A DNA stretch of 22,999 nt from a virus, in the IMG/VR virus record IMGVR_UViG_3300047560_000301, positions 1 through 22,999 of that record; one strand, written 5' to 3'. The notes under the pieces are model-generated. The model saw nothing but the letters and a program-made list of their open reading frames with translations. It was not told the DNA's origin and ran no database searches. The stretch's first letter is position 1, and each line of letters opens with the position of its first letter. Of the stretch, positions 1 to 21,830 are shown one piece after another. Position numbers and translations under genes: made by a program.

Positions 1-1
1 G

Positions 2-532
2 TTTGAAGGCATAGAAAAGATGAATCAACACTTTGCTTTCATTAAGCCTAAAGAAACAGAGTTTACGCCTATGCACATTATCAATGAGGCTTTACCATGG
101 CTAGAGCAATCTACTGTGCAACCTCGTGCGCTGGTGATTGACCCTTGGAATGAGATGGACCATTACAGACCAGCAGGATTAAGTGAAACTGAATATATCT
201 CTCGTGTGCTTACAGAATTGCGTAGAGCTGCTAGAGAGTTTAAGACGCATTTATTTTTGGTGGCTCATCCTATGAAGCTATCTAAAGGACCAGATGGTAA
301 TTATCCTGTGCCTAGACCTTACGATATATCAGGCTCTGCACATTGGTTTAATAAAGCAGATAACTGTATCGCTATTTGGCGTGACGTAATGAACAATCCA
401 CAGTTGACGCAGGTACATATTCAAAAGGTTAGATTTAACTCAACAGGGCATCCAGGCGTAGCTGAATTGATGTATGATTACAATCAAGCAAGCTATGTAT
501 ATGAGCAGGACTTTTATAGGAGCAAACAATGA
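2..532 (+). CDS. DnaB/Twinkle-like replicative helicase, C-terminal part (5' truncated by window edge)
   Basis: The frame is open from base 2, and the first ATG (base 20) is probably internal, so this is the 3' end of a larger gene. Visible pieces match the RecA-fold C-terminal domain of DnaB/Twinkle-type helicases, which unwind duplex DNA at the phage fork using NTP. There is a hydrophobic strand ending in acidic residues (LVIDPWNEMDH, Walker B-like). A second strand ends in the family's motif (FLVAHPMKL). The segment DISGSAHWFNKADNCIAIWR fits the last conserved helicase motif. The Walker A motif and any primase domain would lie upstream, outside the window. It overlaps the next gene by ATGA, which implies translational coupling. 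Alternative: another RecA-fold phage ATPase such as a RepA-like helicase. The domain call is firm; the subfamily is not. Confidence 0.8.
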   Translation, partial: FEGIEKMNQHFAFIKPKETEFTPMHIINEALPWLEQSTVQPRALVIDPWNEMDHYRPAGLSETEYISRVLTELRRAAREFKTHLFLVAHPMKLSKGPDGNYPVPRPYDISGSAHWFNKADNCIAIWRDVMNNPQLTQVHIQKVRFNSTGHPGVAELMYDYNQASYVYEQDFYRSKQ

Positions 533-744
533 ACTTCAATAAAACAGAATGGGCAAAAGCCTTTTGCTTATATGATGGCAGTAATGGCGGTATCAGCTAT
601 CGTGTCACATTAAACGATGGCACAGAGATTAAAAGTGGTAATTGGAGCAATACTTACGACCAAGATGGAACGTGGATTATTCCTTACACCAAGCCAAGAA
701 TTGAAAAAGAAGTAAAGCAAGTGCGAGGCAAACGTGGCAGATAA
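529..744 (+). CDS. Hypothetical protein, 71 aa
   Basis: I do not recognise this family. The start overlaps the helicase stop (ATGA), and AGGAG at 518-522 sits six bases upstream, so the start is well supported. The protein looks small and soluble, with beta-prone stretches (ISYRVTLNDGTEIKSG), a Trp-rich middle and a very basic C-terminus (KEVKQVRGKRGR) that could contact nucleic acid. No signal peptide or membrane segment is seen. It lies between a helicase and recombination genes, so a role in DNA metabolism is possible but is only inference from position. Confidence 0.65.
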   Translation: MNFNKTEWAKAFCLYDGSNGGISYRVTLNDGTEIKSGNWSNTYDQDGTWIIPYTKPRIEKEVKQVRGKRGR

Positions 745-1042
745 GTGTCCTACCTGTGGTCAGATTAAGCGCAGAAGCTCTGAACAAAATAGGCGCTTGC
801 ATAAGCTATTTAACTTGATGTCTGAACAGCTTAAAGGCAAAGATGGTTTGTATCACCCTGCTGCATGGTGGAAGGTAATGAGCAAGGACCAATGGCTAGG
901 CTATGACGAGTTTAATAAGCCTGATGGTAAAACTATCTATGTGCTTCGTGCAACATCAGAGCTTGACGTAGAGGCTTTGACAGAATTTATGAATGAAGTA
1001 GAACGTTACTGTGCTTTGAGAGGCGTATGGCTGCAAGATTAA
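734..1042 (+). CDS. NinB-like recombination protein
   Basis: This starts at GTG 734 with GAGG at 725-728, inside the end of the preceding gene; no ATG upstream fits. At 102 aa it is shorter than lambda NinB (about 146 aa). After a CPTCG pair (Cys5, Cys8) comes a segment of NinB/Orf style: RRSSEQNRRLHKLFNLM, a Trp-containing middle (AAWWKVMSKDQW), and a C-terminal ATSELDVEALTEFMNEVERY helix ending in ALRGVWLQD. In lambda, NinB (Orf) binds single-stranded DNA and SSB and helps recombination mediated by the phage Red system. The neighbouring NinG-like gene supports the call. The single CxxC is odd: no second Cys pair is present to complete a zinc site. The family call rests on pattern recognition and is moderately sure. 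Confidence 0.6.
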   Translation: MADKCPTCGQIKRRSSEQNRRLHKLFNLMSEQLKGKDGLYHPAAWWKVMSKDQWLGYDEFNKPDGKTIYVLRATSELDVEALTEFMNEVERYCALRGVWLQD

Positions 1043-1566
1043 AAATTTGCAAAATATGCAAGAAACAGTTTGAACAAAGACTATTTGCTCAAGTAGTTTG
1101 CGGAATTCCTTGCGCTATTGCCCATGCTAATGCGTTAAAAGCAAAAAAAGAAAAGAAAGAACACAGGGAAGCCAAGGCTAAACTAAAATCAAGGGCTGAC
1201 TATCTTAAAGAAGCTCAAGCAGTATTTAATAAATACATAAGGATGAGAGATGAAGCAGAACCTTGTATTAGTTGTTCACGACATCATGGAGGACAATATC
1301 ACGCTGGGCATTTCAGAACTGTTGGCGCAGCACCTGAACTCCGTTTCAACGAGTATAATTGTCACAAGCAATGTTCAGTTTGCAACAACCATCTGTCAGG
1401 AAACCTTCTCGAATATCGCAGAAAACTCGTGGCCAAAATCGGAATAGAAAAGGTTGAATGGCTAGAAGGTAAGCATGAAGCCAAGAAATACACGATAGAT
1501 GAGATAATTAAGATTAAGAAGCATTATCAACAAAAAATAAAGGATATGCAAAATGGCGGTTCCTGA
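1027..1566 (+). CDS. NinG/Rap-like recombination protein
   Basis: This 179-aa protein resembles lambda NinG (Rap, 204 aa), a structure-specific endonuclease that acts on recombination intermediates. The N-terminus has a zinc-ribbon arrangement (Cys8, Cys11, Cys25, Cys29). A long Lys/Glu/Ala-rich helix (residues about 35-70) follows. The C-terminal half has an HNH-like cluster: Cys80/Cys83, YHAGHF with His92 and His95, then Cys112, Cys116, Cys119, Asn120 and His122 in QCSVCNNHLSGN. These paired cysteines and the HAGHF motif are characteristic of the family. The start at 1027 overlaps the NinB-like gene by 16 bases, with a GAGAGG run at 1018-1023. Downstream translation restarts inside its last codons. 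This is one of the safer calls in the left block. Confidence 0.85.
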   Translation: MAARLKICKICKKQFEQRLFAQVVCGIPCAIAHANALKAKKEKKEHREAKAKLKSRADYLKEAQAVFNKYIRMRDEAEPCISCSRHHGGQYHAGHFRTVGAAPELRFNEYNCHKQCSVCNNHLSGNLLEYRRKLVAKIGIEKVEWLEGKHEAKKYTIDEIIKIKKHYQQKIKDMQNGGS

Positions 1567-1795
1567 TTATTTAGAAGACCAAGAAGAAGAATACATTAAA
1601 GCTAGGGGATATACTTTTAGGGATTTCTCTGCCGAACAAGTGATGGATATGTTAAAGCTACAAGAGATTTCAAAAAAATGCGAAGAAAAATATCCAGCAA
1701 TGAATTCATTTATTGATGAAATGTATAAGAAGCAAGGCTATAAACAGGTTAAATCTAATTCAATCGTTGGTGGTTATATGTGGAAGAAAGGTTAA
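1553..1795 (+). CDS. Hypothetical protein, 80 aa
   Basis: I do not recognise this family. The ATG at 1553 overlaps the end of the NinG-like gene by 14 bases, and AAGGA about eight bases upstream supports the start. The protein is highly charged (Glu/Asp/Lys), predicted mostly helical, with an acidic N-terminus (YLEDQEEEYIKARGY) and a basic, aromatic C-terminus (GGYMWKKG). No cysteines in a zinc pattern, signal peptide or membrane segment are present. Its position between a recombination gene and a possible late regulator gives no specific function. Confidence 0.65.
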   Translation: MAVPDYLEDQEEEYIKARGYTFRDFSAEQVMDMLKLQEISKKCEEKYPAMNSFIDEMYKKQGYKQVKSNSIVGGYMWKKG

Positions 1796-1798
1796 TTG

Positions 1799-2125
1799 AT
1801 GGAAAGTAGTCAAGTTTTACATTATCTTGATATATGGCGCACTTGGATGAAGAACGACAACCTAAAGCTAGGATACAAGACTAAATCAAGTGGCTTTCTA
1901 ACAGGCTCAATACATTCATTCGATGACCTGGAAGACGAAGTAGATAACAAAGCAGCTCAAACTGTGGATAAGTGCATAGATGATTTAAGCACGATTGAGA
2001 GAACAGCTATTTATGTAAGATGGATGGGGGAAAAGACATTGGTTAACCCTATTATGATTGACATGCACTATGACATAGCGTTAAGTAAACTAGCCAAGAA
2101 ACTACCAGAACAAGGATTATATTGA
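1799..2125 (+). CDS. Candidate late transcription regulator (antiterminator Q / sigma-region-4-like)
   Basis: I choose ATG 1799, not the TTG at 1796 just before it, because AAAGG lies about eight bases upstream of the ATG. The protein has 108 aa. Its second half contains VDKCIDDLSTIERTAIYVRW, followed by MHYDIALSKLAKKLPEQGLY. A helix with a 'LSxxERxAIYxRW' core, then a second helix with Tyr, Ala and Leu, is the general pattern of small phage late regulators of the Q/RinA/ArpU type with a sigma-region-4-like helix-turn-helix. These control transcription of lysis and virion genes. Position agrees: it is near the end of the early block and about 500 bases upstream of a strong promoter followed at once by a terminator. 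I see no zinc-finger cysteines, unlike lambda Q. The family call is tentative. Confidence 0.5.
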   Translation: MESSQVLHYLDIWRTWMKNDNLKLGYKTKSSGFLTGSIHSFDDLEDEVDNKAAQTVDKCIDDLSTIERTAIYVRWMGEKTLVNPIMIDMHYDIALSKLAKKLPEQGLY

Positions 2126-2436
2126 TGAATAAAAAAGACGAAGCAATACACAAAGCATTAAAAGTTTTAAATTGTTTAAATAACGACAGAGTATATGAAA
2201 CTGCATGGGTGAAAGGTGCAATCAATGCCTGTGAAGAAGCACTAGAACAACCAGCGCAAGAACCTGTGGCTTGGCTATCTACAAATAGTAAAGCCAATGA
2301 AGTGATAAAAACTCATCAATCGCAAGGATTAACGGATGATGAGATAAAAGAGATATGGTTAAAATTGCCACAATTTCCAAATCATTTTGATATTAGTCGT
2401 GCTATTGAACAAGCATTAAAGGAAAAGAATGGTTGA
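2125..2436 (+). CDS. Hypothetical protein, 103 aa, with an EPVAW motif
   Basis: ATG 2125 overlaps the previous stop codon (TGATG) and has AAGGA upstream. A TTG one codon earlier is possible but less likely. The protein starts with a helical segment (KDEAIHKALKVLNCL, then INACEEALEQ). The phrase AQEPVAWLST follows, and such EPVAW motifs recur in small accessory phage proteins of unknown role. The second half (GLTDDEIKEIWLKLP...SRAIEQAL) looks helical. No membrane segment is visible. The tight spacing to both neighbours places it in the same early operon. I assign no function. Confidence 0.65.
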   Translation: MNKKDEAIHKALKVLNCLNNDRVYETAWVKGAINACEEALEQPAQEPVAWLSTNSKANEVIKTHQSQGLTDDEIKEIWLKLPQFPNHFDISRAIEQALKEKNG

Positions 2437-2608
2437 TTGGGAAAAAGAAGCCAAGTATTGGAAAGAGAAATACGAGCGCCAATATAATAGCTGGTTAAGC
2501 CTACGCACATGCTGGAATAAGCTAATCCGTGAGGTAGATGACCATGAGATTAGAATGATTTTAGCTAAAAAAGCAGATGCTAATAGAATCAAAGACTTAT
2601 CAAAATAG
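2429..2608 (+). CDS. Small hypothetical protein, 59 aa
   Basis: This short frame begins at ATG 2429, overlapping the previous gene by eight bases, with AAAGGA at 2418-2423 five bases upstream. It reads MVDWEKEAKYWKEKYERQY at the N-terminus, then a Trp-containing helix (SWLSLRTCWNKLIREVDDHE), ending in IKDLSK. It looks like one or two amphipathic helices rich in Trp, Lys and Glu, possibly a coiled-coil dimer. The spacing, ribosome binding site and clean overlap make it probably real despite its size. Its stop codon abuts the first TTGACA of the promoter region, so it is likely the last gene of the early transcript. Function unknown. Confidence 0.6.
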   Translation: MVDWEKEAKYWKEKYERQYNSWLSLRTCWNKLIREVDDHEIRMILAKKADANRIKDLSK

Positions 2609-2631
2609 TTGACAAATAATGCAAAAAGTGC

Positions 2632-2646
2632 TTGACAAAAAGTCAA
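2632..2646. promoter_or_regulatory. Operator-like inverted repeat over the -35 element
   Basis: TTGAC (2632-2636) and GTCAA (2642-2646) are perfect inverted arms around five A residues. Related AAAAAGT units also occur at 2623-2629, 2637-2643 and (AAAAGT) 2645-2650. Such an arrangement could bind a dimeric regulator or an antiterminator, but the arms are short and chance is possible. Confidence 0.35.
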
Positions 2647-2660
2647 AAGTGTGCAATAAT
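2632..2660 (+). promoter_or_regulatory. Strong sigma70-type promoter, candidate late promoter (pR'-like)
   Basis: A perfect -35 hexamer (TTGACA, 2632-2637), a 17-base spacer and a -10 of AATAAT (2655-2660) give the best promoter-like sequence I saw. The start of transcription would be about 2667-2669. The -35 sits inside an inverted repeat TTGAC-AAAAA-GTCAA (2632-2646), and another TTGACA lies 23 bases upstream (2609-2614). It points at the virion genes. Confidence 0.75.
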
Positions 2661-2711
2661 GCGCGTGTAGGACAATTCCGTCTATAGGTTTTGTTCTAAC
2701 ATCTCCGTTTC

Positions 2712-2738
2712 GACCGTCTATATGGCGGTCTTTTTTTT
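2712..2738 (+). terminator. Rho-independent terminator just after the late promoter (tR'-like)
   Basis: GACCGTC (2712-2718) pairs with GGCGGTC (2724-2730), seven pairs with one G-U, around a TATAT loop. Eight T residues (2731-2738) follow directly. It lies about 50 bases after the -10 of the promoter, so the unmodified transcript would be only about 70 nt. It separates the promoter from every virion gene. Confidence 0.85.
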
Positions 2739-2742
2739 GGTA

Positions 2743-2875
2743 ATAGCGTGTAATAAAGAATAAGCAACCCTAACTAGCAAGGGATAACAATACCCATTGC
2801 AATAGCGTCTTACATTAAGAGATGTATTTAGCAAGCTAAAGCTAAATTGAAAGCTAAATCATTCGGGGATAGCGT
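2743..2875 (+). repeat. Three direct ATAGCGT repeats
   Basis: ATAGCGT occurs at 2743-2749, 2802-2808 and 2869-2875, spaced 59 and 67 bases apart (about six helical turns each). A 7-mer three times in 133 bases is more than expected by chance, but function is unknown. Confidence 0.5.
2827..2858 (+). repeat. GCTAAA repeat cluster with TTTAGC palindrome
   Basis: TTTAGC (2827-2832) and GCTAAA (2835-2840) form a perfect inverted repeat with an AA centre. Two more GCTAAA units follow at 2841-2846 and 2853-2858, at offsets of 6 and 12 bases. The layout resembles a multi-site protein binding element. Confidence 0.5.
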
Positions 2876-2957
2876 AATCATGCTTAATTGCCGATTATTT
2901 GTGACTATCTTAAACACAAGCTAGTGTTATTACCAAAATATATAAAAGGAATTTATC

Positions 2958-3119
2958 ATGCCTTACAATTTGCAGCAGCATAAGTTATTTGAGGCTGCCG
3001 CCCACTCTGCTGAAGTTGCAAAGCGTGTAGGCATCCCTCAAGAAACAGCAGCAAAAATGGCACATGAAGGTGTCAAGAAAAACCCAAAGAAGTTAGCTAA
3101 AGCGCTAATGACTAAATAA
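2958..3119 (+). CDS. Small hypothetical protein, 53 aa
   Basis: The short frame starts at ATG 2958 with AAGGA at 2946-2950, a good ribosome binding site. The product is helical and basic: an N-terminal YNLQQHKLFEAAAHSAEVAK helix, then VGIPQETAAKMAHEG, and a Lys-rich tail (KKNPKKLAKALMTK). The 'AKRVGIPQETAAKM' stretch is reminiscent of a helix-turn-helix turn, but I cannot call a fold. It is the first gene after the candidate late promoter and lies directly before the terminase genes. It might be a DNA-binding partner in packaging, or an unrelated small late protein. Confidence 0.6.
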   Translation: MPYNLQQHKLFEAAAHSAEVAKRVGIPQETAAKMAHEGVKKNPKKLAKALMTK

Positions 3120-3125
3120 TTTTAT

Positions 3126-3157
3126 GGAGCGTAAGACCACTCTTATGAACATATATG
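3126..3157 (+). promoter_or_regulatory. Ribosome binding site possibly bridged to the small-terminase start by a hairpin
   Basis: GGAG (3126-3129) is 25 bases from the ATG at 3155, too far for normal initiation. CGTAAG (3130-3135) can pair with CTTATG (3142-3147), six pairs with one G-U, around ACCACT. If this hairpin forms, GGAG is brought to seven unpaired bases from the ATG, an ideal distance. T4 gene 38 uses this kind of arrangement. No other ribosome binding site is visible for this start. Confidence 0.45.
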
Positions 3158-3481
3158 GCACAGGAACCTACAAATACTAAAGACTTGAATCTTAAAGAGA
3201 AATCTGTAACCTATGGCGATAGACGTAGAGCAGAGCGTAAAGAGGCTTTAAGAGAGCTATTAGAGGGTCAAAAGTACATCCAAGCTATTCATAACACATT
3301 GGATATGCCTATTGCTAATGATGAGTTAGCTGTTGCCAAGTTCAAGACAGAAACAAGGTTAAAGCTCCTAGCTAAAGTATTGCCTGACTTAAAAGCAGTC
3401 GAGGTAAGCGCTGATGACGATACATTGGCACAAGTATATGGCTGGCTAGATGCAAATGAACAAGACACCACTTCCGTATAG
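3155..3481 (+). CDS. Putative terminase small subunit
   Basis: This 108-aa protein lies directly before, and overlaps by 32 bases, the large terminase gene; that position is the main reason for the call. It is charged and mostly helical, with a basic segment (YGDRRRAERKEALRELLEG) suited to DNA contact. A longer helical region follows (ELAVAKFKTETRLKLLAKVLPDLK), then an acidic C-terminal part (VSADDDTLAQVYGWLDANEQD) that could contact the large subunit. Small terminase subunits recognise the packaging site and regulate the motor. I see no strong sequence signature. The ATG at 3155 lacks a normally spaced ribosome binding site (see the hairpin entry). A later TTG at 3184 is a weaker alternative start. 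Confidence 0.55.
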   Translation: MAQEPTNTKDLNLKEKSVTYGDRRRAERKEALRELLEGQKYIQAIHNTLDMPIANDELAVAKFKTETRLKLLAKVLPDLKAVEVSADDDTLAQVYGWLDANEQDTTSV

Positions 3482-4787
3482 ACCGAGAAGTGCGTTTATG
3501 CCATTACACAATGGCGACAAAAGATGGAGTGTTGTAGTAGCTCACCGTAGGGCTGGCAAGACAGTCGCCTGTATAAATCACTTAATCAGAGAAGCATTAA
3601 GGACCACAAGGCATGATTTCAGAGCAGCCTACATCGCTCCATTTTACAAACAAGCTAAAAGCGTTGCTTGGGATTACTTCAAGTATTACACCAAGATTAT
3701 TAAGGGCATCACAGTCAACGAGTCTGAAATGCGAATTGACTTTGCTAACGGTTCTCGTATTCAACTATTTGGTGCTGATAATGCTGACGCTTTGCGTGGT
3801 CTGTTCTTCGACTACATTGTTGCTGATGAATATGGCGATTGGAAGCCTTCGGTATGGCAATATGTTATACGCCCTGCTTTAGCAGATCGTCAAGGTAAGG
3901 CTATTATTATTGGTACGCCTAAAGGCAGAAACCAATTTTACGAAACATACAAGAGAGCTACAGAGTCTGATGACTGGTTAGCTTTAAAAGTAGTGGCTAG
4001 TGAGTCTGGCATATTACCAAAGAGTGAGCTTGATTCATTAAGAGCCGAGCTAACAGAAGATGCTTGGCGTCAAGAGATGGATTGTGACTTCGATGCAGCT
4101 ATCCCTGGTGCTATTTGGGGTCGTGAACTTTATCAGGCAGAACAAGATGGAAGGATTACTCATGTCGAATACGATACTTTTGTGCCTGTTCATACTGCTT
4201 GGGACCTTGGGTATTCAGATGATACTGCTGTCTGGTTCTACCAAGTCGTACATGGTGAGATTCATGTTATTGATTACTACGGCGCAAGTGGCAAATCTAT
4301 TGAACATTATGCTGCGGTAATTCTAGGAAAGAATTATAAATACGGTACACATCATCTACCTCACGATGCTAGAGCTAAAACCCTAGCTAGTGGTGGTAAG
4401 TCTGTCATTGAGCAATTAGCTGAACATCTAGACTGGAAGCATTTAGCGATAACTCCTAATCTTTCTGTGCAAGATGGTATTCAAGCTGCTCGCATGGCAT
4501 TTGCTCGCATCTGGATTGATAGGCATAACTGCGAAGAAGGGCTAGAAGCTCTCAAGCAATACCAGCGTGAGTGGGATGATGACAAGAAGCAGTTTAAAGA
4601 CAAGCCTCGTCATGACTGGACTTCACATGCGTCAGATGCGTTTAGATACCTAGCTGTATGCTGGCGTGAAGAATACAAAGAAACGCTAGAAGATAAACCT
4701 ATCAAGGGTATTACAGTAGGCGATAACGAAGTAACTCTAAACGAACTATGGGCCACGGTGCCTAAACAAACTAATAAAAGGATTTAA
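3450..4787 (+). CDS. terL: Terminase large subunit (packaging ATPase-nuclease)
   Basis: This 445-aa protein has the full two-domain terminase plan. The N-terminal ATPase has a Walker A variant AHRRAGKT (residues 31-38), Walker B IVADE (123-127) with the catalytic Glu, and a coupling motif IIIGTPKGR near 152-160. The C-terminal RNase H-like nuclease shows an acidic strand, TAWDLGYSDDTAVW (about residue 250), a middle region HHLPHDARAKTLASGG, and the last motif DWTSHASDAFRYLA near the end. The enzyme threads genomic DNA into the prohead through the portal and cuts it. ATG 3450 or ATG 3456 could be the start; both lie inside the small subunit gene, which implies coupled translation. The motifs are complete and nothing suggests decay. 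Confidence 0.95.
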   Translation: MQMNKTPLPYRPRSAFMPLHNGDKRWSVVVAHRRAGKTVACINHLIREALRTTRHDFRAAYIAPFYKQAKSVAWDYFKYYTKIIKGITVNESEMRIDFANGSRIQLFGADNADALRGLFFDYIVADEYGDWKPSVWQYVIRPALADRQGKAIIIGTPKGRNQFYETYKRATESDDWLALKVVASESGILPKSELDSLRAELTEDAWRQEMDCDFDAAIPGAIWGRELYQAEQDGRITHVEYDTFVPVHTAWDLGYSDDTAVWFYQVVHGEIHVIDYYGASGKSIEHYAAVILGKNYKYGTHHLPHDARAKTLASGGKSVIEQLAEHLDWKHLAITPNLSVQDGIQAARMAFARIWIDRHNCEEGLEALKQYQREWDDDKKQFKDKPRHDWTSHASDAFRYLAVCWREEYKETLEDKPIKGITVGDNEVTLNELWATVPKQTNKRI

Positions 4788-4789
4788 TT

Positions 4790-5065
4790 ATGTCAGGCAT
4801 TGCAACTCAAGTCGGTGGATACAAGCTATTAACAACAACAGGCAACGTAGCACCTATCCCTAAAAAGATGCTAGGTATTTTCTGCTCTGCATCATCAAGC
4901 GGTACTGTTACATTGTACGATTCAGCTACGACTACGACATCAACAAAGGTAATTGATACTTTCACATTGACCGCTGGTACATTCTATACAATCCCTGTGG
5001 CTTTTGCTTCAGGCATTTATGCTGTTGTTGGCGGCACATTAAGCGCAACTATCATCTACGCTTAA
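4790..5065 (+). CDS. Small beta-rich virion-type protein, 91 aa
   Basis: ATG 4790 follows the terL stop by two bases, with AAAGGA upstream. The protein is rich in Thr, Ser, Ala and Gly with alternating hydrophobic residues (GTVTLYDSATTTTSTKV, DTFTLTAGTFYTIPVAF, GIYAVVGGTLSATIIYA), so it looks all-beta. Small beta-sandwich proteins of this kind occur in phage virions as decoration or tail-associated proteins. Position between terminase and portal supports a structural role. I cannot name a family, and no signal peptide or membrane helix is convincing. Confidence 0.65.
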   Translation: MSGIATQVGGYKLLTTTGNVAPIPKKMLGIFCSASSSGTVTLYDSATTTTSTKVIDTFTLTAGTFYTIPVAFASGIYAVVGGTLSATIIYA

Positions 5066-5074
5066 GGATAACTC

Positions 5075-7228
5075 ATGGCTACGGTAAAACAGGTAACATC
5101 CGAGGTGCAAAAGTACCTTGATATGTTCAGCCAATACGAGAAAGACTTTCAGAAGTGGGAAGGTCGTGTAGAGAAGATTCTCAAGCGCTATCGTGATGAA
5201 AGAACTACGACTACTGCTCAATCTCACTACAACATCTTGTGGGCTAACGTACAAACATTGAAGGCTGCAACCTTTAGCCGTATGCCTCGCCCAGACGTAT
5301 CACGTCGCTTTAAAGACAATGACCCAGTAGCTCGTGTGGCTGCTTTATTGTTGGAACGTGCATTAGACTTTGAGATTACTCACGTTGATGACTTCCAACG
5401 CACATTGACATCATGCGTATATGACCGTTTCTTGGGTGGTCGTGGTACTGCATGGATTCGCTACGAGCCTATCATCGAAACTGACGATACATTTGTGTCT
5501 GAAGAAGATGAAGATTCAGATATGGTATCTGAATACCTAGACATTGAGCAAGCGCCTGTTGATTATGTTCATTGGCGTGACTTTGGCCATTCATTTGGTC
5601 GCACATGGGATGAAGTAAATACAGTATGGCGCAGAGTTTACATGACTCGCAAGATGCTCAAAGAGCGTTTCCCTGAAGAAACCTTTGGTGATTTGTGGAA
5701 GCAAGTACCACTAGACGCCTCACCTGAAGATACACGCACCAAAATGATGGAAAGCAATCCTAAACGTGCGTTGATTTACGAAGTATGGGATAGAGAAACC
5801 AAGTGTGTTTATTGGATTAACAAGTCCATGAACAAGATTCTTGACCATCGTGAAGACCCTCTACAATTAGAGGAATTCTTCCCTTGTCCTAAACCTTTGT
5901 ACGCTACATTGACTAATGAGTCTATCGTTCCTGTACCAGACTTTACACTATACCAAGACCAAGCTAACGAGTTAGATACGCTTTCTGACCGTATTAAAGG
6001 TCTTGTAGATGCCTTGAAGGTTCGTGGCTTCTATGACGCTGCTAACCCTGATTTAAACCGCTTATTTACAGAGGGTGACAATAACACCTTAATTCCTGTG
6101 AAAAACTACTCTGCCTTCGCTGAAAAGGGTGGCTTGGGTGGTGCTGTCGAGTTTGTTGACCTTAACCCTATCGCTAGTGCCTTGAATATGGCTTACACAG
6201 CTATGGGTCAAGTGAAACAACAAATCTATGACATTACAGGTATCTCTGACATTATTCGTGGTGCATCAGTAGCTTCAGAAACAGCTACAGCGCAACAAAT
6301 CAAAGGTCAATACGCTACATTGCGTCTAAAGACATACCAAGACGAAGTGGCTATGTTCGCTTCAGCTATCTTAAAGATTAAAGCGCAGATTATCTGTCAG
6401 CATTTCCAACCTGAAACCATCCTAAAGATTGGTGGTGCAGAGTTGTTGAATCCTGATGACCAAGCATTGATTCCTCAAGCGATGGAATTGTTAAAGAACA
6501 ATCCAATGAGAACCTTCCGTGTGGAAGTGGCTACCGATTCAATGTTATACGCTGACGAACAACAAGAGAAGGCTGACCGTGTAGAGTTTCTAACATCTAC
6601 ATCAGCATTTATCGAGAAGGCTGTACAGGCTGCTCAAGTAGCACCAGAGATTACACCTCTAATTCTTGACTTGTTGAAATTTGGCGTGACAGGCTACCGT
6701 GTGGGTAGAACTATCGAGGGTGAAGTAGATAATGTAGCTGACAAAATGAAACAAATCGCAGCTCAACCTAAACAACCTCAACCTAATCCTGATGAGATTA
6801 AAGCTCAAGCAGAAATGCAGAAGATGCAAGCAGAGATGCAACTCGAACAAATGAAGATGCAGTTAGAACAGCAGAAGCTAGAGTTTGAGAAGTGGAAAGT
6901 CCAAATGGATAATGACACTAAAGTCATCATTGCTGAAATGGCTGCGAAGAAAGACATCAAGACTACTGCAATGAACATCAATGGCGCTAAAGAAGCTGAA
7001 GGCTTAACAGAGCTAGATGACATGGGCGTAGAGCAACCAACATCTGCATTGCAGGGATTAGTGGAAGCAATCAACGCAAATATGGCGGTGATGACGCAAG
7101 CTCAAGCTCAACACAATCAAGACATCTTGATGCAACAACAAATGGCGCATCAAAACTTGGTACAACAATTAACGAAGCCGAAAATGGTTCAACGTGGCCC
7201 AGATGGTAAGATTACTGGAGTAGCTTAA
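5075..7228 (+). CDS. Portal protein, P22-like
   Basis: This 717-aa protein is close in length to the P22 portal (gp1, 725 aa) and follows terminase, the usual order. Portals form the dodecameric ring at one head vertex through which DNA passes. Features include a charged helical N-terminus (about 1-45), the conserved QSHYNILWANVQTLKAATFSRMPRPDV region, and RFLGGRGTAWIRYEP. The segment VPDFTLYQDQANELDTLSDR lies in the middle, followed by the DITGISDIIRGASVASETATAQQIKGQ stem-type region. The C-terminal part (about 580-630) is a Met/Gln/Glu-rich coiled coil that could form a P22-like barrel extending into the head. AAGGA precedes the ATG. The C-terminal tail is Gln/Met-rich and low in complexity. 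The stop overlaps the next start (TAATG). Confidence 0.9.
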   Translation: MATVKQVTSEVQKYLDMFSQYEKDFQKWEGRVEKILKRYRDERTTTTAQSHYNILWANVQTLKAATFSRMPRPDVSRRFKDNDPVARVAALLLERALDFEITHVDDFQRTLTSCVYDRFLGGRGTAWIRYEPIIETDDTFVSEEDEDSDMVSEYLDIEQAPVDYVHWRDFGHSFGRTWDEVNTVWRRVYMTRKMLKERFPEETFGDLWKQVPLDASPEDTRTKMMESNPKRALIYEVWDRETKCVYWINKSMNKILDHREDPLQLEEFFPCPKPLYATLTNESIVPVPDFTLYQDQANELDTLSDRIKGLVDALKVRGFYDAANPDLNRLFTEGDNNTLIPVKNYSAFAEKGGLGGAVEFVDLNPIASALNMAYTAMGQVKQQIYDITGISDIIRGASVASETATAQQIKGQYATLRLKTYQDEVAMFASAILKIKAQIICQHFQPETILKIGGAELLNPDDQALIPQAMELLKNNPMRTFRVEVATDSMLYADEQQEKADRVEFLTSTSAFIEKAVQAAQVAPEITPLILDLLKFGVTGYRVGRTIEGEVDNVADKMKQIAAQPKQPQPNPDEIKAQAEMQKMQAEMQLEQMKMQLEQQKLEFEKWKVQMDNDTKVIIAEMAAKKDIKTTAMNINGAKEAEGLTELDDMGVEQPTSALQGLVEAINANMAVMTQAQAQHNQDILMQQQMAHQNLVQQLTKPKMVQRGPDGKITGVA

Positions 7229-9537
7229 TGTCATATACCCTAAAGGATAGAGTATTAGAAAGCTCTGTATCTACGGGTACAGGTGACTTTGTACTCGATG
7301 GCGCACAAACAGGCTATCAAGGCTTCGTTAATGTGGGCGATGGTGTTTCAATCCCTTATACCATTCAAGGTAAGAACGCAGATGGTTCTTTAAACGGTGA
7401 ATGGGAAGTAGGTATTGGTACTTATCACCTATCAGGTAACTATATTTCTCGTGATACTGTACTTGAGTCATCAAACTCAAATAGCAAGGTAGCGTTTTCT
7501 AGTGGCTCTAAAGACATTTTCTTGGACTTACCAGGGGAATTAGTCGTACAAGGTCCTTCTAGCGCAACCAACAGCGATTTTGTGGCTTTTGACGGTACTT
7601 CTGGCAAGGTAATTAAGGATAGCGGATACAGTTCTGCTTCATTTGCGACTGCTGCTCAAGGTGCAAAGGCTGATACGGCTGTTCAGCAGTCAACAGTAGG
7701 CCAACCTAATGGCGTTGCAAGTCTAGATAACACAGGTAAGGTGCCTACAAGTCAAATCCCACAGATGGGTGACTTAAACTACCAAGGAACATGGAATGCA
7801 AGCACTAATACGCCTACTCTTACTTCCTCTGTTGGTACTAAAGGTTATTATTACGTTGTTAATGTGTCTGGTTCTACCAATCTTAATGGCATCACTGATT
7901 GGGTTGTTGGTGATTGGGCAGTTTTCAACGGAAGTATTTGGCAAAAGATAGACAATACTGACGCTGTAACAAGCGTAAACGGTCAAACTGGTACTGTTGT
8001 TCTAACTTACACAGACGTAGGCGCAGCACCAGCGACTTCAGGCACATCAATCCTTTATGGTAATGGTACTGGTGGCTTCAGTAACGTAACGATTGGCACA
8101 GGCGTAACCTTTGCTGGTGGTACATTGAGTGCTACAGGTACAGGTGGTGATGTAGTAGGGCCATCAAGTTCTACTGACAATGCGATTGTGCGTTTCGATG
8201 GTACAACAGGCAAGCTAATCCAAAACTCTGCTGTGACGATTGACGATGCAGGCAATATTATTAGCCCTGATTCAGTTCAATTTAGCGGTACAGTTCCTGC
8301 TACACAACCTATTGGTACATTGTGGTTTGATTCATCTAATGACAGTTTGAATCTGCAACAAAACAACATCACTCAACAGATTGGCGAAGAAATTTACATC
8401 TATGGTCGTGCTTCTGAAGCGATTACAGATGGTCAAGTGATTGCAGTAAGTGGTGCTTACGGTACAACAGGCTTTGTGACATTTGAACCTGCGCCTATCG
8501 GCACAACAGACCCAACACACATTATTGGTTTGGCTACAGAGCCTATTGCTAAAAATGGTTTTGGTCGTATTACTGCGTTTGGTATTGTGCATGGCTTATC
8601 AACTTCACCAGGCTTTGCTGATGGCGATACGTTATGGTATGACCCAACAGTCGTAGGTGGATATACAAAGACACAACCTTCTGCGCCTAACATTAAAGTA
8701 CAGGTTGGTGTTGTTACCAAAGCTGCTGGTGGTACAAACGGTTCTATTCAAGTCAAAGTATTTAATGGCCCTACCATTAATGACATTGCGAATATCCAAG
8801 TAGCTACTCCAACTGGCGGTCAGTTATTAACCTATAACGCAACTGGTGGCTATTGGAAGAATACTAGCTTAACAGCAGGTACAGCGATTACTGTAACTCC
8901 TGCTGCTGGTGGTGGCATCACAATCACTAACTCTGCACCTGACCAGACAGTAGTTTTAACTGGCGCTGGTACGACAACCGTAACAGGAACATATCCTAAC
9001 TTTACGATTACGTCTAACGACCAATACACAGGTACAGTCACTTCTGTATCAGGCACAGGCACAGTAAATGGCATCACTTTAACAGGTACAGTTACATCAT
9101 CAGGCAATTTAACTTTAGGTGGCACACTATCTAATGTTAGCTTGACTACACAAGTGACAGGCACATTGCCTATTGCTAATGGTGGTACAAATGCTACGTC
9201 TGCTGGTGCTGCTGTTGCTAACTTATTTGGATTTACATCTACTGCAACTGCTGGTGGCTCAACAACGCTCACTAATACAAGCACAGTATTCCAATTATTT
9301 ACTGGCACAGCTAACCAAACGATTGTATTGCCTGTTGTAAGCACTTTGGCTCAAGGTTGGACTTTCACTTTGACTAATACAAGTACAGGCACTCTGACTT
9401 TAAACAGCTCTGGTGGTAACTTGGTTGCTTCTATTGTGCCTAATTCTAGCGTATCCGTAGTTTGCATTTCTACTTCTGGTACAAGTGCAGCTTCATGGGT
9501 AATCTCTAGCTCAACAACAGCCGTCTGGTCAACATAA
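7228..9537 (+). CDS. Tail fibre / receptor-binding protein, 769 aa
   Basis: The start TAATG overlaps the portal stop, with GGAG at 7217-7220. The N-terminal 75 residues (SYTLKDRVLESS..., NYISRDTVLESS) match a domain often seen at the N-terminus of phage fibres that attach to the virion. The middle has NGVASLDNTGKVPTSQIP and a Trp-rich GDLNYQGTWNASTNTP region typical of fibre shafts. A module GPSS-T-----V-FDGT-GK-I--S appears twice (residues 109-132 and 311-334). LPIANGGTNATSAGAA is also a common fibre motif. The C-terminal third is almost all Thr, Ser, Gly, Val and Ala and is probably beta-structured. The protein would bind the host surface. Its place between portal and scaffold, rather than with the tail genes, is unusual. 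Confidence 0.8.
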   Translation: MSYTLKDRVLESSVSTGTGDFVLDGAQTGYQGFVNVGDGVSIPYTIQGKNADGSLNGEWEVGIGTYHLSGNYISRDTVLESSNSNSKVAFSSGSKDIFLDLPGELVVQGPSSATNSDFVAFDGTSGKVIKDSGYSSASFATAAQGAKADTAVQQSTVGQPNGVASLDNTGKVPTSQIPQMGDLNYQGTWNASTNTPTLTSSVGTKGYYYVVNVSGSTNLNGITDWVVGDWAVFNGSIWQKIDNTDAVTSVNGQTGTVVLTYTDVGAAPATSGTSILYGNGTGGFSNVTIGTGVTFAGGTLSATGTGGDVVGPSSSTDNAIVRFDGTTGKLIQNSAVTIDDAGNIISPDSVQFSGTVPATQPIGTLWFDSSNDSLNLQQNNITQQIGEEIYIYGRASEAITDGQVIAVSGAYGTTGFVTFEPAPIGTTDPTHIIGLATEPIAKNGFGRITAFGIVHGLSTSPGFADGDTLWYDPTVVGGYTKTQPSAPNIKVQVGVVTKAAGGTNGSIQVKVFNGPTINDIANIQVATPTGGQLLTYNATGGYWKNTSLTAGTAITVTPAAGGGITITNSAPDQTVVLTGAGTTTVTGTYPNFTITSNDQYTGTVTSVSGTGTVNGITLTGTVTSSGNLTLGGTLSNVSLTTQVTGTLPIANGGTNATSAGAAVANLFGFTSTATAGGSTTLTNTSTVFQLFTGTANQTIVLPVVSTLAQGWTFTLTNTSTGTLTLNSSGGNLVASIVPNSSVSVVCISTSGTSAASWVISSSTTAVWST

Positions 9538-9899
9538 TGCTTGGCTTTGGTGCTTTAGCTAGTCGTGCGTTTAACGCATTATTGCAGGTTGTTGCTCCAA
9601 CCCCTGCTCCTACATGGGGTCAAAAGGGTGGTATTGGTCGCAAGCATAAAGACCATATTAAGAAATCTCAACGTGCAGAGCTTAAAGAGTATTTAGCAAC
9701 GGTATTTGATGAGCCAGTCGCTGAACAATTAAAAGAAGAAGTCAAAGAGTACGTCAAACCATCACAAGGCTTGTCAGTTCACTCGATTGATTACGGCAAA
9801 TTAGCCAAAGATATTGAATTAGTACAACGCATCATACAGAAAGCTCAAGAATTGCAACAAGAGCAAGAAGATGAAGCAATCTTGTTAATGTTAATGTGA
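9537..9899 (+). CDS. Hypothetical protein, 120 aa, downstream of tail fibre
   Basis: The ATG overlaps the fibre stop (TAATG), so translation is probably coupled. The protein starts with an amphipathic helix (LGFGALASRAFNALLQVV), followed by a Pro/Ala linker and a basic GQKGGIGRKHKDHIKK segment. It ends in a long Glu/Gln-rich helix (IELVQRIIQKAQELQQEQEDE) likely to form a coiled coil. I do not recognise a family. A fibre chaperone, fibre connector or virion protein are all possible. Its close link to the fibre gene suggests they act or move together. Confidence 0.6.
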   Translation: MLGFGALASRAFNALLQVVAPTPAPTWGQKGGIGRKHKDHIKKSQRAELKEYLATVFDEPVAEQLKEEVKEYVKPSQGLSVHSIDYGKLAKDIELVQRIIQKAQELQQEQEDEAILLMLM

Positions 9900-9906
9900 G
9901 GATAAT

Positions 9907-10260
9907 ATGAGTTTCTTACCTGATTGGTGGTCACAAGGTGTTCAAGGCATGGATTCCAATGGTGGCTTTGGTACTGCTGGCATGTTTAACAAGCCAACAG
10001 CAGGTCAAACTGGTGATTTTGGTGGTTATTTACCTAAATTGATTGATATGTTACGCAATCGTGGGGAAATGAACCCATCTGCAACACCAGACATGACGAA
10101 TAAAGCTGATAATGCTCCGCAAATGGATAATATGCCTTCTTTTACGCCATATCAAACAACACCAATCGGTCCAGACATGAATAAAGTGCAACGTGCTTAC
10201 GGCATGAGTCCAAATGGGCAGATTATGCCTAACTGGAATCGCACTTATGGTGGTTACTAA
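9907..10260 (+). CDS. Low-complexity virion-associated-type protein, 117 aa (paralogue 1)
   Basis: GAGGA sits just before ATG 9907. The protein is rich in Met, Asn, Pro, Gly and Gln with little predicted regular structure. It starts with FLPDWWSQG, has a MFNKP motif, an LIDMLRNRG helix, and ends in MPNWNRTYGGY. The next gene has the same order of motifs (LPDW, MF-NP, MLR, NW-YGGY), so the two are probably tandem paralogues. I know of no function; a disordered structural or scaffold-linked role is possible because both sit inside the head module. Confidence 0.6.
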   Translation: MSFLPDWWSQGVQGMDSNGGFGTAGMFNKPTAGQTGDFGGYLPKLIDMLRNRGEMNPSATPDMTNKADNAPQMDNMPSFTPYQTTPIGPDMNKVQRAYGMSPNGQIMPNWNRTYGGY

Positions 10261-10262
10261 TC

Positions 10263-10544
10263 ATGGGTATGCTGCCTGATTGGTCTATTAAAGGTTCACG
10301 CCCTATGGGTAGTTTTGGTCAATACACGCAAAACAATATGTTTACCAATCCTAGCTATGAACAACAAGGCAAGCCTCAAGCATTAGCGAATATGTTAAGA
10401 CAACCTACCATGCAGCAACAGGTTCAACCTAATCCTATGCAACCTCAACCGTATCAAGCAGGTATTACGCAACAAACAAATATGATGGGCGGTGGCAATC
10501 CGCAAGGCATTCAGAATTGGAATTCACAATATGGCGGCTATTAA
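10263..10544 (+). CDS. Low-complexity virion-associated-type protein, 93 aa (paralogue 2)
   Basis: This ATG lies two bases after the previous stop, with only a weak GGTGG upstream, so translation may depend on the gene before it. The N-terminus (MLPDWSIKGSRPMGSFG), NNMFTNP, LANMLRQ and the C-terminal NWNSQYGGY echo the preceding gene. The middle is Gln/Pro/Met-rich (QPNPMQPQPYQAG). Sequence identity outside these motifs is low, so any duplication is old. The 3' end overlaps the next gene by 14 bases. Function unknown. Confidence 0.6.
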   Translation: MGMLPDWSIKGSRPMGSFGQYTQNNMFTNPSYEQQGKPQALANMLRQPTMQQQVQPNPMQPQPYQAGITQQTNMMGGGNPQGIQNWNSQYGGY

Positions 10545-10938
10545 CGATATAACAGGTCATTCAATTCAGACCCGTGAGATAACAAAAGAATACGAAGATA
10601 ATCACGAAAAGATTTTCGGTAAAAAAGAAAAAAGTTCAGTTAAACGCTGGATACAAGACCCAGTTACTTTTAAGTTAGTTCCTGCTGATGAATACTATGC
10701 TCCAGCAGAAAACGCTGGCCCTTACATTCGTGATGACATCAAACCTTATCAGTCAATGATTGATGGTCGAATGATTGAAGGTCGCAAGATGCACCGAGAA
10801 CATTTAAAAAGTAATAACTGTATTGAGGCAGGTGACATGCCTATCAAGAATCCTGAAAGACCCAAGGATAACAGCTTGAAAGAGCGTTTAATTTATGAAG
10901 TAATGCACAACCCTGCCAACAGGGCTAGATGGAAATAA
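10531..10938 (+). CDS. Conserved phage head-region protein, 135 aa, function unknown
   Basis: I choose ATG 10531, with GGAA nearby. A longer frame reaches ATG 10492 but would run further into the previous gene without a clear ribosome binding site. The protein contains KRWIQDPVTFKLVPADEYY, GPYIRDDIKPYQSMIDGRMI, and REHLKSNNCIEAGDM. This set (a 'KLVP' strand, a 'Dd-pY-S-iDG' stretch, then 'R-HLk---C-E-G') recurs in podovirus head modules as an uncharacterised protein. It is basic and soluble. It could be a zinc-free DNA-binding or head assembly protein, but that is a guess. Confidence 0.65.
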   Translation: MAAINDITGHSIQTREITKEYEDNHEKIFGKKEKSSVKRWIQDPVTFKLVPADEYYAPAENAGPYIRDDIKPYQSMIDGRMIEGRKMHREHLKSNNCIEAGDMPIKNPERPKDNSLKERLIYEVMHNPANRARWK

Positions 10939-10956
10939 TTTAACAAGGAGTAACAA

Positions 10957-11313
10957 ATGGCAAAAGTAGCAAACTTAACAGGCTCTGGCATCGCTGGCGG
11001 TGCAGCACAGTCTATCGTAGGTCGTGTATCTCTAGCACAAACAGCTAGTGGCTCTGCACAAGGTGGTCAAACAGTTGTAAATGATATTGTTCAATACACA
11101 TCATCTACATCTAACTACGGCCCAACACTATCTGCAACAGCAGCACCTGGCGATACAGTAACTATCGTTAATGGTTCAGCTAACACAATCAAAGTATGGC
11201 CAGCATCAGGCAAGTCTATCGATGGCGGTACAGCAGATGCAGCAGTAACTCAAGCAACATTAGTAACAAAACAATACGTTTCACTCGGTAACGGTAATTG
11301 GGTAACACTATAA
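10957..11313 (+). CDS. Small beta-rich structural protein, putative capsid decoration
   Basis: AAGGAG just before ATG 10957 gives a strong start. The 118-aa protein has a Gly/Ser/Ala-rich N-terminus, then beta-strand stretches: QTVVNDIVQYTSS, GDTVTIVNGSANTIKVWPASGKSIDGG, TLVTKQYVSLGNGNWVTL. The 'NTIKVWPASG-SI-GG' and 'LGNGNWV' phrases recur in phage structural proteins, often beside capsid or fibre genes. Codon choice is biased (many AAC and GGT), like the capsid gene, which suggests high expression. A decoration or head fibre protein fits; direct evidence is lacking. Confidence 0.6.
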   Translation: MAKVANLTGSGIAGGAAQSIVGRVSLAQTASGSAQGGQTVVNDIVQYTSSTSNYGPTLSATAAPGDTVTIVNGSANTIKVWPASGKSIDGGTADAAVTQATLVTKQYVSLGNGNWVTL

Positions 11314-11333
11314 TTTAACTCAAGGAAAAGATA

Positions 11334-12347
11334 ATGGAAAGCCAGACTACTCTGGAGCAACCTGAATCTTTGCGTGATAGCATTGCAAACGCATTAGAAG
11401 CAGCAGAAACTCCAAACACTCAAGAAACGACCTCACAGGAAGCGTCAGAAACGCCTAAATCATCACGAGCAAGGGATGAGTCAGGTAAATTCACAAAAAC
11501 GCAACCTGAAGCTGATGTGCAAGAAATAGAGGCTATCGAGGCTCAAGAGGAAGAAAAACCTGCTGTAAAACCAAGACCAAGCTCTTGGAAGAAGGATTAT
11601 GAAGAACATTGGGGTAAATTAGACCCCCAATTACAAGATTATATCCAGCAACGTGAGGCTGATTATGCTAAAGGCGTATCAACTTACAAAAATCAATGGG
11701 AACAAGCAGCTCCAATTTTGGAATCGCTTAATCAGTTCCAGCCTTTATTAAGGCAATATGGTGTAGCTCCACAACAATGGATTACACAATTAGGAAATGC
11801 ACATGCACAACTTGTTACTGGTACGCCAGAACAAAAGATGCAGATTTTCCAACAACTCGCTAACGACTATGGTGTGAATTTAGGTGCTGTAACTGGTCAA
11901 ACTAGTTATGACCCACAGTTCTCATCTTTGGCGCAAGAGTTAAATGCAATTAAGAATCAATGGGGTCAGTTCCAAGCACAACAAGAAGCAATGGAGCAGA
12001 CTCAATTAAGAAGTGAGATTGACAGTTTTAAAGCTGACAAACCTTATTTCGAGGAAGTTCGTGAAGTCATGGCTGGATTACTCCAGTCAGGTATGGCAGA
12101 TGACCTTCAATCAGCCTATGAAAAGGCTATCCGATTAAACGATGACGTATTTCAAAAAGTAAGTGCTGAACAGGCACAGAAATCTGAAGCGGTTCAACGA
12201 GAAAAGGTAGCACAAGCCAAGGCAAAGGTACTTTCTCCAAAGTCAACCACCCCTACAGGGTCAGCGACTGGTGGTAGTAAGTCCGCAAGTTCGGCTAGAG
12301 AAGCAATCATGGCTGCAATGGAGCAGCACTCTAGCAGTTTAATCTGA
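11334..12347 (+). CDS. Scaffolding protein
   Basis: This lies directly before the major capsid gene, the standard place for scaffold, and has AAGGA upstream. The 337-aa protein has an acidic, Thr/Ser/Glu/Pro-rich, probably disordered N-terminus (1-75). A helical region (about 78-160) with SSWKKDYEEHWGKLDPQLQDYIQQREADY follows, a segment often present in podovirus scaffolds. After it come QYGVAPQQWITQLG, a Gln-rich helix, and a basic C-terminus (KAKVLSPKSTTPTG... AREAIMAAMEQ) that could bind coat protein as in P22. Scaffold directs coat protein assembly into proheads and then exits. Composition, length and position all agree. Confidence 0.85.
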   Translation: MESQTTLEQPESLRDSIANALEAAETPNTQETTSQEASETPKSSRARDESGKFTKTQPEADVQEIEAIEAQEEEKPAVKPRPSSWKKDYEEHWGKLDPQLQDYIQQREADYAKGVSTYKNQWEQAAPILESLNQFQPLLRQYGVAPQQWITQLGNAHAQLVTGTPEQKMQIFQQLANDYGVNLGAVTGQTSYDPQFSSLAQELNAIKNQWGQFQAQQEAMEQTQLRSEIDSFKADKPYFEEVREVMAGLLQSGMADDLQSAYEKAIRLNDDVFQKVSAEQAQKSEAVQREKVAQAKAKVLSPKSTTPTGSATGGSKSASSAREAIMAAMEQHSSSLI

Positions 12348-12365
12348 TAATTAAGGAGTGATATT

Positions 12366-13361
12366 ATGGCATTTGCCAATTCAACCGTATCAGACATTAT
12401 TGCAACTACCATTCAATCTCGTAGTGGCAAATTGGCTGACAACGTAACACTAAACAACGCAGTTCTTGACCGCCTACGCAAACGTGGCAATGTTCGCCCA
12501 TTCAGCGGTGGTAACGTGATTCTTGAAGAAATCATGTACAACGACAGCAACACAAACAACACTAACTCATACAGCGGTTATGAAACTCTGAACATTGCGC
12601 CTAACAGCCCAATTTCTGCAGCTCAATTCTCTATCGCTCAATACGCTAGTGCTGTAACAATCTCTGGCCTAGAAATGTTGCAAAACAGTTCTAAAGAAGC
12701 AATCATCGACTTGTTAGAAGGTCGTGTACAGGTTGCTGAAGGCCAATTGATGAACCGTATCCAAACAGACATCTACGGTAACGGTACAGGTAACGGTGGT
12801 AAAAACTTGACTGGTTTGGCTGCTGCTGTAGCTGATAGCCCAGCAACAGGCGTGTATGGCGGTATCAACCGTGCTACATGGTCTTTCTGGCGTAACCAAG
12901 CGTTCTCTGGCGTAACAGACGGAGGCGCTGCTGTTTCTGCTGCTAACATTCAATCTTACATGACACAATTAGCTATCAAGCTAGTTCGTGGTAATGACAA
13001 GGCTGACTTGATTGTAGCTGACAACAACTACTACAGCCTATATGTAAACTCATTGCAAGCTATCCAACGTGTAACTTCTGCTGAAGAAGGCGCTGCTGGT
13101 TTCGCTTCATTGAAATTCTACGGTGGCGGTACATCTGCTGACGTGGTACTTGGTGGTGGTATTGGTAACCAAGCAACTGCAAACCATATGTGGTTCTTGA
13201 ATACAAACTACATCTACTTCCGTCCACATGCAGACCGTAACTTCACACCAATCGGTGGCGAACGTCAATCTGTAAACCAAGACGCAGTAGTGAAATTGAT
13301 TGGTTGGGCTGGTAACTTAACTAGCTCTGGCCCACAATTCTCTGGCGTATTAACAGCTTAA
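12366..13361 (+). CDS. Major capsid protein (HK97-fold)
   Basis: The strong AAGGAG and position after scaffold support the call. The 331-aa protein opens with AFANSTVSDIIATTIQSRSG, then NVTLNNAVLDRLRKRGNVRPFSGGNVILEE, an N-terminal pattern I associate with major capsid proteins of podovirus-like phages. The middle ASAVTISGLEMLQNSSKEAIIDLLEGRVQVAE and C-terminal RPHADRNFTPIGGERQSVNQDAVVK fit the same family. It would form the icosahedral shell. P22 coat is longer (430 aa) with an extra inserted domain; that insertion seems absent here. Codon use is strongly biased to AAC, GGT and CGT, as expected for the most abundant virion protein. Confidence 0.9.
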   Translation: MAFANSTVSDIIATTIQSRSGKLADNVTLNNAVLDRLRKRGNVRPFSGGNVILEEIMYNDSNTNNTNSYSGYETLNIAPNSPISAAQFSIAQYASAVTISGLEMLQNSSKEAIIDLLEGRVQVAEGQLMNRIQTDIYGNGTGNGGKNLTGLAAAVADSPATGVYGGINRATWSFWRNQAFSGVTDGGAAVSAANIQSYMTQLAIKLVRGNDKADLIVADNNYYSLYVNSLQAIQRVTSAEEGAAGFASLKFYGGGTSADVVLGGGIGNQATANHMWFLNTNYIYFRPHADRNFTPIGGERQSVNQDAVVKLIGWAGNLTSSGPQFSGVLTA

Positions 13362-13377
13362 TTAAGGAGAATTAGAC

Positions 13378-13677
13378 ATGGCATATTCAGTAACCCCAAT
13401 TTCAGGCGTTGACCTTACTTCAGCAGCTCAAACACAAATCGCATCTGATGGTTCTACACTCATTCCTAACATGGGTCCATTAGGTAACGAAGTATTTGGC
13501 TCTGACGGTTTGCGTTATGTTTTCGCTAAAGCAGGTAATGACTTTACTGCTGGTGAAACATCATGCTCAATCAGCACAACTACATTTGTTGCAACTTCAA
13601 CAGGTGGCGCTTATATCGCTCCTGCTGTAGCTTTGTTGACAGGTCAATATGGCTGGTTCGGTAAGGCTTCAGTTTAA
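13378..13677 (+). CDS. Small structural protein after capsid, 99 aa
   Basis: AAGGAG lies about ten bases before ATG 13378, and the gene ends just before a terminator, so it shares the capsid transcript. The protein has an N-terminal VTPISGVDLTSAAQTQIASDG and LGNEVFGSDGLRYVFAKAGNDFTAGE, then beta-type stretches and a C-terminal TGQYGWFGKASV. Proteins like this often follow the major capsid gene in podovirus genomes. A capsid decoration or stabilising role is plausible from position and codon bias, but I cannot assign a known family. Confidence 0.6.
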   Translation: MAYSVTPISGVDLTSAAQTQIASDGSTLIPNMGPLGNEVFGSDGLRYVFAKAGNDFTAGETSCSISTTTFVATSTGGAYIAPAVALLTGQYGWFGKASV

Positions 13678-13690
13678 TAACTGATTGATT

Positions 13691-13713
13691 CTCCTCCCTT
13701 CGGGGAGGGGTTT
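13691..13713 (+). terminator. Stem-loop terminator with UUCG tetraloop after capsid genes
   Basis: CTCCTCCC (13691-13698) pairs with GGGAGGGG (13703-13710), eight pairs with one G-U, closed by a very stable TTCG loop and followed by TTTCT. The U tract is short, so termination may be partial, letting some transcription reach the tail genes. It may also shield capsid mRNA from 3' decay. Confidence 0.8.
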
Positions 13714-13771
13714 CTACTAGGTTTTCATGGTGAGAGTCTAGTACAAACCCAAACCACTTTGGAGAATATCA

Positions 13772-14365: not shown

Positions 14366-14366
14366 T

Positions 14367-15284: not shown

Positions 15285-15286
15285 TT

Positions 15287-17205: not shown

Positions 17206-17208
17206 GAA

Positions 17209-18237: not shown

Positions 18238-18238
18238 T

Positions 18239-19510: not shown

Positions 19511-19511
19511 T

Positions 19512-21827: not shown

Positions 21828-21830
21828 TAA

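Follow-up and report, generated by a model that had tools for sequence, protein, structure and literature searches.

A probable Q-type late antitermination switch with a short, divergent phage 21 Q relative and a covarying leader hairpin in an environmental phage

A strong promoter that is followed almost at once by a strong terminator, with virion genes beyond, raises the question of how such genes come to be transcribed. This arrangement occurs in the window analysed here, the whole stretch of 22,999 nucleotides of IMG/VR virus record IMGVR_UViG_3300047560_000301, for which an earlier note had suggested a Q-type antitermination switch with a 108-aa protein as the Q-like factor. Very probably, the unit controls late transcription by Q-type antitermination, and its regulator is a short, divergent member of the phage 21 Q superfamily. 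The kind of switch is already known, and the protein family is a very divergent, previously unannotated form. The best of 9 promoter sites in 1-6000 is the pR'-like late promoter TTGACA-17-AATAAT at 2632-2660 (+ strand), which scores 11/12, carries an extended -10 TG and places the transcription start near 2667. The best terminator-like site of the same region is the tR'-like intrinsic terminator at 2712-2738 (+ strand), with its stem at 2712-2730 (7 bp, 5 GC) and a T8 run. The near-consensus promoter and the clear Rho-independent terminator that had been noticed by eye are thus both confirmed. The window contains one pair in which a promoter scoring 11/12 or better has a stem of at least 6 bp with T6 no more than 110 bp downstream, and no pair of this kind was present in any of 200 dinucleotide-shuffled windows. 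No TGAGCA-type Q-binding repeat lies between the -35 and -10 elements of the window promoter, and a direct repeat of AAAAGT inside the promoter (2638-2643 and 2645-2650), read from the sequence and not widely conserved, is no more than a candidate Q-binding element. Directly 5' of the -35 element, GTTGACAAATAATGCAAAAAGTGC (2608-2631, + strand) is retained in the close relatives L001, L004, L012, L036 and L059 although the coding genes around it differ, and this is possibly a site for a regulator or for Q.

The genes on both sides of this unit fit a late switch. The 108-aa gene (1799-2125, + strand) comes after a NinB-like recombination gene (734-1042, + strand; PHROG 72, E 3e-15, with Pfam NinB just under its cut-off) and a NinG gene (1027-1566, + strand; Pfam NinG, E 5e-60), and in lambdoid phages Q usually stands next to nin genes. 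Two small ORFs, at 2125-2436 and 2429-2608, separate the 108-aa gene from the promoter. Past the terminator, the first recognisable virion gene encodes the large terminase (TerL, 3450-4787, + strand; Pfam Terminase_6C), and a portal gene follows at 5075 (P22_portal, below cut-off), which bears out the expectation that late genes lie beyond the terminator. The approximately 218 bp (2739-2956) that separate the terminator from the first late ORF appear to be non-coding and contain short internal repeats. That ORF, at 2958-3119, is conserved, encodes 53 amino acids (MPYNLQQHKLFEAAAHSAEVAKRVG...) and has relatives in L001 and L004.

The identity of the 108-aa protein is central to this reading. 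In Pfam, PHROG and NCBIfam it has no match to a Q family, the lambda-type Q family included, nor to the RinA or ArpU families. Pfam matches to Med2 and GST_C_3 were below cut-off and were dismissed. More than 400 relatives were found in IMG/VR, and none was confirmed in GTDB genomes by the family search. Two annotated relatives recovered by tblastn, from Methylophilales phage Venkman and ctXG6705, are both labelled antitermination or Q, and the only Pfam match of the Venkman protein is PF06530 (E 0.0086, 16.4 bits, below the cut-off of 26). When a profile of 19 diverse family members was aligned by hhalign with seven QuuD-type PF06530 proteins, the E value was 2.2e-4 and the score 29.1, as against at most 18.0 for 30 shuffled-column profiles and 10.2 for a reversed control. 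The alignment spans helix 1 and the loop after it, with the motifs L-x2-W and S/A-x-G-F. PF06530 itself is identified with Q21, because the Q protein of Pm34 matches both PF06530 and the 6p18 structure. The profile search proposed for this protein thus gave no direct match to Q, RinA or ArpU, and reached PF06530 through the Venkman relative and the profile-profile alignment.

The predicted fold points in the same direction. The AlphaFold2 model of the window protein consists of a helix at residues 3-21, a flexible or disordered stretch at 22-44, and helices at 41-61, 65-76 and 84-104. In a VIA-align comparison with the PDB, its top match is Q21 in the 6p18 loading complex (Z 7.6 over 92 residues), and the other high rows are mostly Q21 or sigma region 4 structures. 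A second AlphaFold model, from a clade only 25% identical, again ranks Q21 first (Z 7.8), with 21Q in the arrested complex second; as Z is under 8, the fold alone would not settle the Q21 identity, and is supportive rather than proof. Many of the matches being to sigma region 4, and weak Sigma70_r4_2 matches occurring in relatives, the protein could also be read as a conventional activator, sigma-region-4-like in fold, that binds DNA and works at the promoter, the terminator being incidental. This is very unlikely, since a promoter so close to consensus (12/12 in the displayed loci of the L008-like clade) leaves little to activate, the terminator is retained at a short distance, and the Q21 match extends over residues 1-108 and takes in helix 1, whereas most sigma matches are confined to about 40-108. 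The link to a phage-21-type Q is drawn because the Pfam match of a relative, the profile-profile alignment and the fold agree. These sequence comparisons and models support the view that the protein is a short, very divergent member of the phage 21 Q superfamily. Its proposed role as the Q-like factor is strengthened accordingly by the three lines, and the idea that it might represent a different Q family, suggested by its lack of zinc cysteines (the sequence contains a single cysteine), must be corrected to that of a remote Q21 relative.

The promoter-leader-terminator unit follows the Q-like gene in most of the family. In the window-like clade, Q is followed, mostly within 60-1300 bp, by a promoter, a leader of 50-69 nt and a terminator. 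In the L008-like clade, a promoter of at least 10/12 whose -35 element starts at the Q stop codon, and then a T-run terminator, are present at 77/77 loci, that is, at all loci with enough sequence. In EBPR podovirus 1, TTGACA-17-CAGAAT, a short hairpin and a terminator were read by eye after gp41, at a place that the automatic scan did not list. By the same criteria, the QuuD-type loci L291-L295 show no clear promoter-leader-terminator unit adjoining Q. The Venkman genome (L298) has a Q-like gene and carries its virion genes on the opposite strand; the leader was not recognised beside Q or elsewhere in it, and late promoters in this clade may be of a different design. On the minus strand of this genome, near 1478, a TTGACA promoter with a short hairpin and no terminator was not convincing as a leader candidate. 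A scan of IMG/VR with one 14-base leader motif, made independently of the protein and counted in distinct contexts, returned 27 contexts in which leader and Q occur together, one leader context that lacks Q and looks like chance, 51 with neither, and two adjoining Q in which the full leader context was not recognised. In a terminator context, therefore, the motif adjoins a Q-like gene in 27 of 28 cases. A separate IMG/VR scan, for TGCGTCTAN{8,34}TCTCCG, was rejected and kept as a control; of its 120 stretches, one had a T-run and no Q homologue was present in any, which marks the matches as chance. Directly after the late terminator of one relative (L036:3724-3791) there is an Rfam int-alpA RNA (RF02996, 50.1 bits).

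Within the leader, 36 distinct promoter-anchored sequences share a G at +5, an A/T-rich -10-like element at about +6 to +11 and, at +12 to +16, a CG block. In the window, the -10-like element is GACAAT (2671-2676, + strand, about +5 to +10), which appears in the same register in relatives as TATAGT, TATAAT or GATAGT. The block after it is CCGTCTA (2678-2684, + strand, about +12 to +18), conserved as GCGTCTA, TCGTCCA or TCGCCCA. This register is that of the sigma-dependent pause described for Q systems (PMC6606751). By this likeness in sequence, GACAAT is likely to be the element for a sigma-dependent pause, and the CCGTCTA block is the probable pause position. The TATAGG that had earlier been singled out as the pause element is indeed present at 2683-2688 (about +17), but it is not conserved as such in relatives, whereas GACAAT is.

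The leader RNA holds one unexpected feature, a covarying hairpin whose function is putative. Hairpin 1 (2668-2698, + strand) has arms at 2668-2675 and 2691-2698 that form 8 bp, and in the predicted folds of the window and its relatives the 5' arm overlaps the -10-like element. When the arms of 15 divergent leaders were permuted, none of 100,000 permutations was as good as the true pairing for hairpin 1, and 7 of 100,000 were for hairpin 2. The complementarity of hairpin 1 is thus not a by-product of shared composition. An alignment of 18 sequences shows double-sided changes in 10 of 22 pairs, with a covariation score that none of 500 shuffles and no slid control reached. When a covariance model was built from other leaders, the window left out, its best match in the window was 2663-2710 (E 0.02; next 0.54). 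Exceptions occur, as the hairpin is weak (3-4 bp) in the short-form L008 clade, and leaders L223, L261 and L286 break a pair among those displayed. Rfam gives no match at gathering score at the window leader, and a weak anti-hemB match (E 0.54) was dismissed. Between hairpin 1 and the terminator lies the nearly invariant TCTCCG (2702-2707, + strand). In relatives, a second covarying hairpin carries UCUCC in its loop; the window lacks this second hairpin but retains UCUCCG.

Two other readings of the unit were considered. In one, the unit constitutively makes a short terminated regulatory RNA, as an attenuator or small RNA, and the late genes are expressed from elsewhere; promoter and terminator are both strong enough for this, and UCUCCG could conceivably be an exposed loop resembling an anti-Shine-Dalgarno sequence. 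However, CGGAGA is absent from the window, which led us to reject the idea that UCUCCG pairs with ribosome-binding sites, no + strand site in 3100-22999 scores better than 10/12 as a promoter, and in relatives the unit directly precedes late genes and adjoins a Q21-like gene, so that this reading is extremely unlikely. In the other, the leader hairpins act in the manner of put or nut RNA, on polymerase alone or by recruiting a protein, with the 108-aa protein as an accessory. HK022 putL is, like the window leader, a promoter-proximal RNA of about 70 nt with stem-loops, two in number, and a -10-like element (PMC9378689), and the covarying hairpins with conserved loop sequences would suit such a role. 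HK022 putL differs in acting without a protein and at early promoters, an always active put RNA would leave the immediate terminator without effect, and the leader tracks the Q-like gene. Moreover, just one strong hairpin is present in the window leader, and the leader covariance model, with filters off, finds no match at the HK022 put locus, as it shows no relation to lambda. We regard put- or nut-like action as decidedly unlikely, and the Q-type switch remains our preferred reading.

Comparison with known systems places this switch beside that of phage 21. As in the window, the Q genes of phage 21 and of other phages with PF06530 (Phage_antitermQ), namely HK75, HK639 and Proteus phage Pm34, stand at the end of the nin region, and the annotation of HK75 likewise has a pR' overlapping the end of Q, a short leader and Tr' right after it. 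The PF06530 Q proteins share with the window family the N-terminal L-x2-W motif, the S/A-x-G-F loop and the Q21 fold match, and the leaders are alike in sequence (GGTAAGTTGC in Pm34 and TATATGTTGCC in HK639, against GGTATAGTTGCG in window relatives). In contrast, the window protein has about 108 residues instead of about 162 and no Pfam match at cut-off, and its system has no TGAGCA repeats, a pair of small genes separating Q from the promoter, and a separate hairpin and ATCTCCG block before the terminator. A comparable hairpin is seen in six PF06530 or Q21-like phage leaders (HK639, yong1, ST15-VIM1phi2.1, Pm34, IKEMa6-1 and 535AP2), for which 5 of 720 permutations were as good, a result that is suggestive only because the arm boundaries were chosen by eye. 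In SE10 and HK75, it is the terminator hairpin that begins at this position. The hairpin is thus probably not special to the family of the window protein. Lambda Q, with pR' and tR', follows the same logic, although its protein has no detected similarity and its leader is much longer. The lambda leader, too, folds the RNA of its -10-like element into a hairpin; in lambda and HK022 (L297:700-1040 and L401:12790-13090), AACGA of this element can pair with UCGUU some 15 nt farther on, which makes an analogous hairpin in a Q family that is unrelated. AlpA of Pseudomonas aeruginosa is a promoter-loaded antiterminator with a terminator that starts 54 nt past the start site (PMC7969949). Unlike phage Q it is a cellular regulator, and the likeness noted is one of arrangement.

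Q21 loads at a promoter-proximal pause, and its ring admits only single-stranded RNA (PMC6606751). By analogy, we infer pausing, Q loading and read-through in the window phage, a proposal for which the protein family and fold match, the order of Q, promoter, leader, terminator and late genes, the fixed register in which the -10-like element and the CG block stand, and the covarying hairpin over the pause region offer sequence support. Polymerase would initiate at the late promoter and pause a few bases downstream, as sigma rebinds GACAAT. Without Q it would terminate at 2712-2738 and release a leader RNA of about 70 nt, and with Q loaded at the pause it would read through into the terminase and virion genes. 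In late leaders of the Q21 superfamily, the conserved hairpin is conceivably a working part of the switch, and our preferred model of its role is no more than a tentative guess: its 5' arm, an RNA copy of the sigma-pause element, might fold outside the Q ring, block the nascent RNA from slipping back, and so keep Q threaded and limit backtracking. The hairpin is probably not needed for loading, since the 21Q arrested complex formed on a template in which C:G pairs between +1 and +20 had been changed. No published account of a conserved hairpin over the pause site was found in the open-access literature, in a search that was not exhaustive. If the hairpin matters, it adds an unrecognised RNA component to a textbook mechanism described so far as protein and DNA. 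With this analysis, the reach of Q21-type antitermination grows to include hundreds of contigs from environmental phages in which standard profiles miss the Q gene, and the leader features provide a simple marker for their late promoters. Farther along the window, a second terminator-like hairpin, CTCCTCCC-TTCG-GGGAGGGG (13689-13710), with a weak T-run, lies between late genes and has no good promoter after it, so that polymerase would have to pass such a site by processive antitermination or partial read-through.
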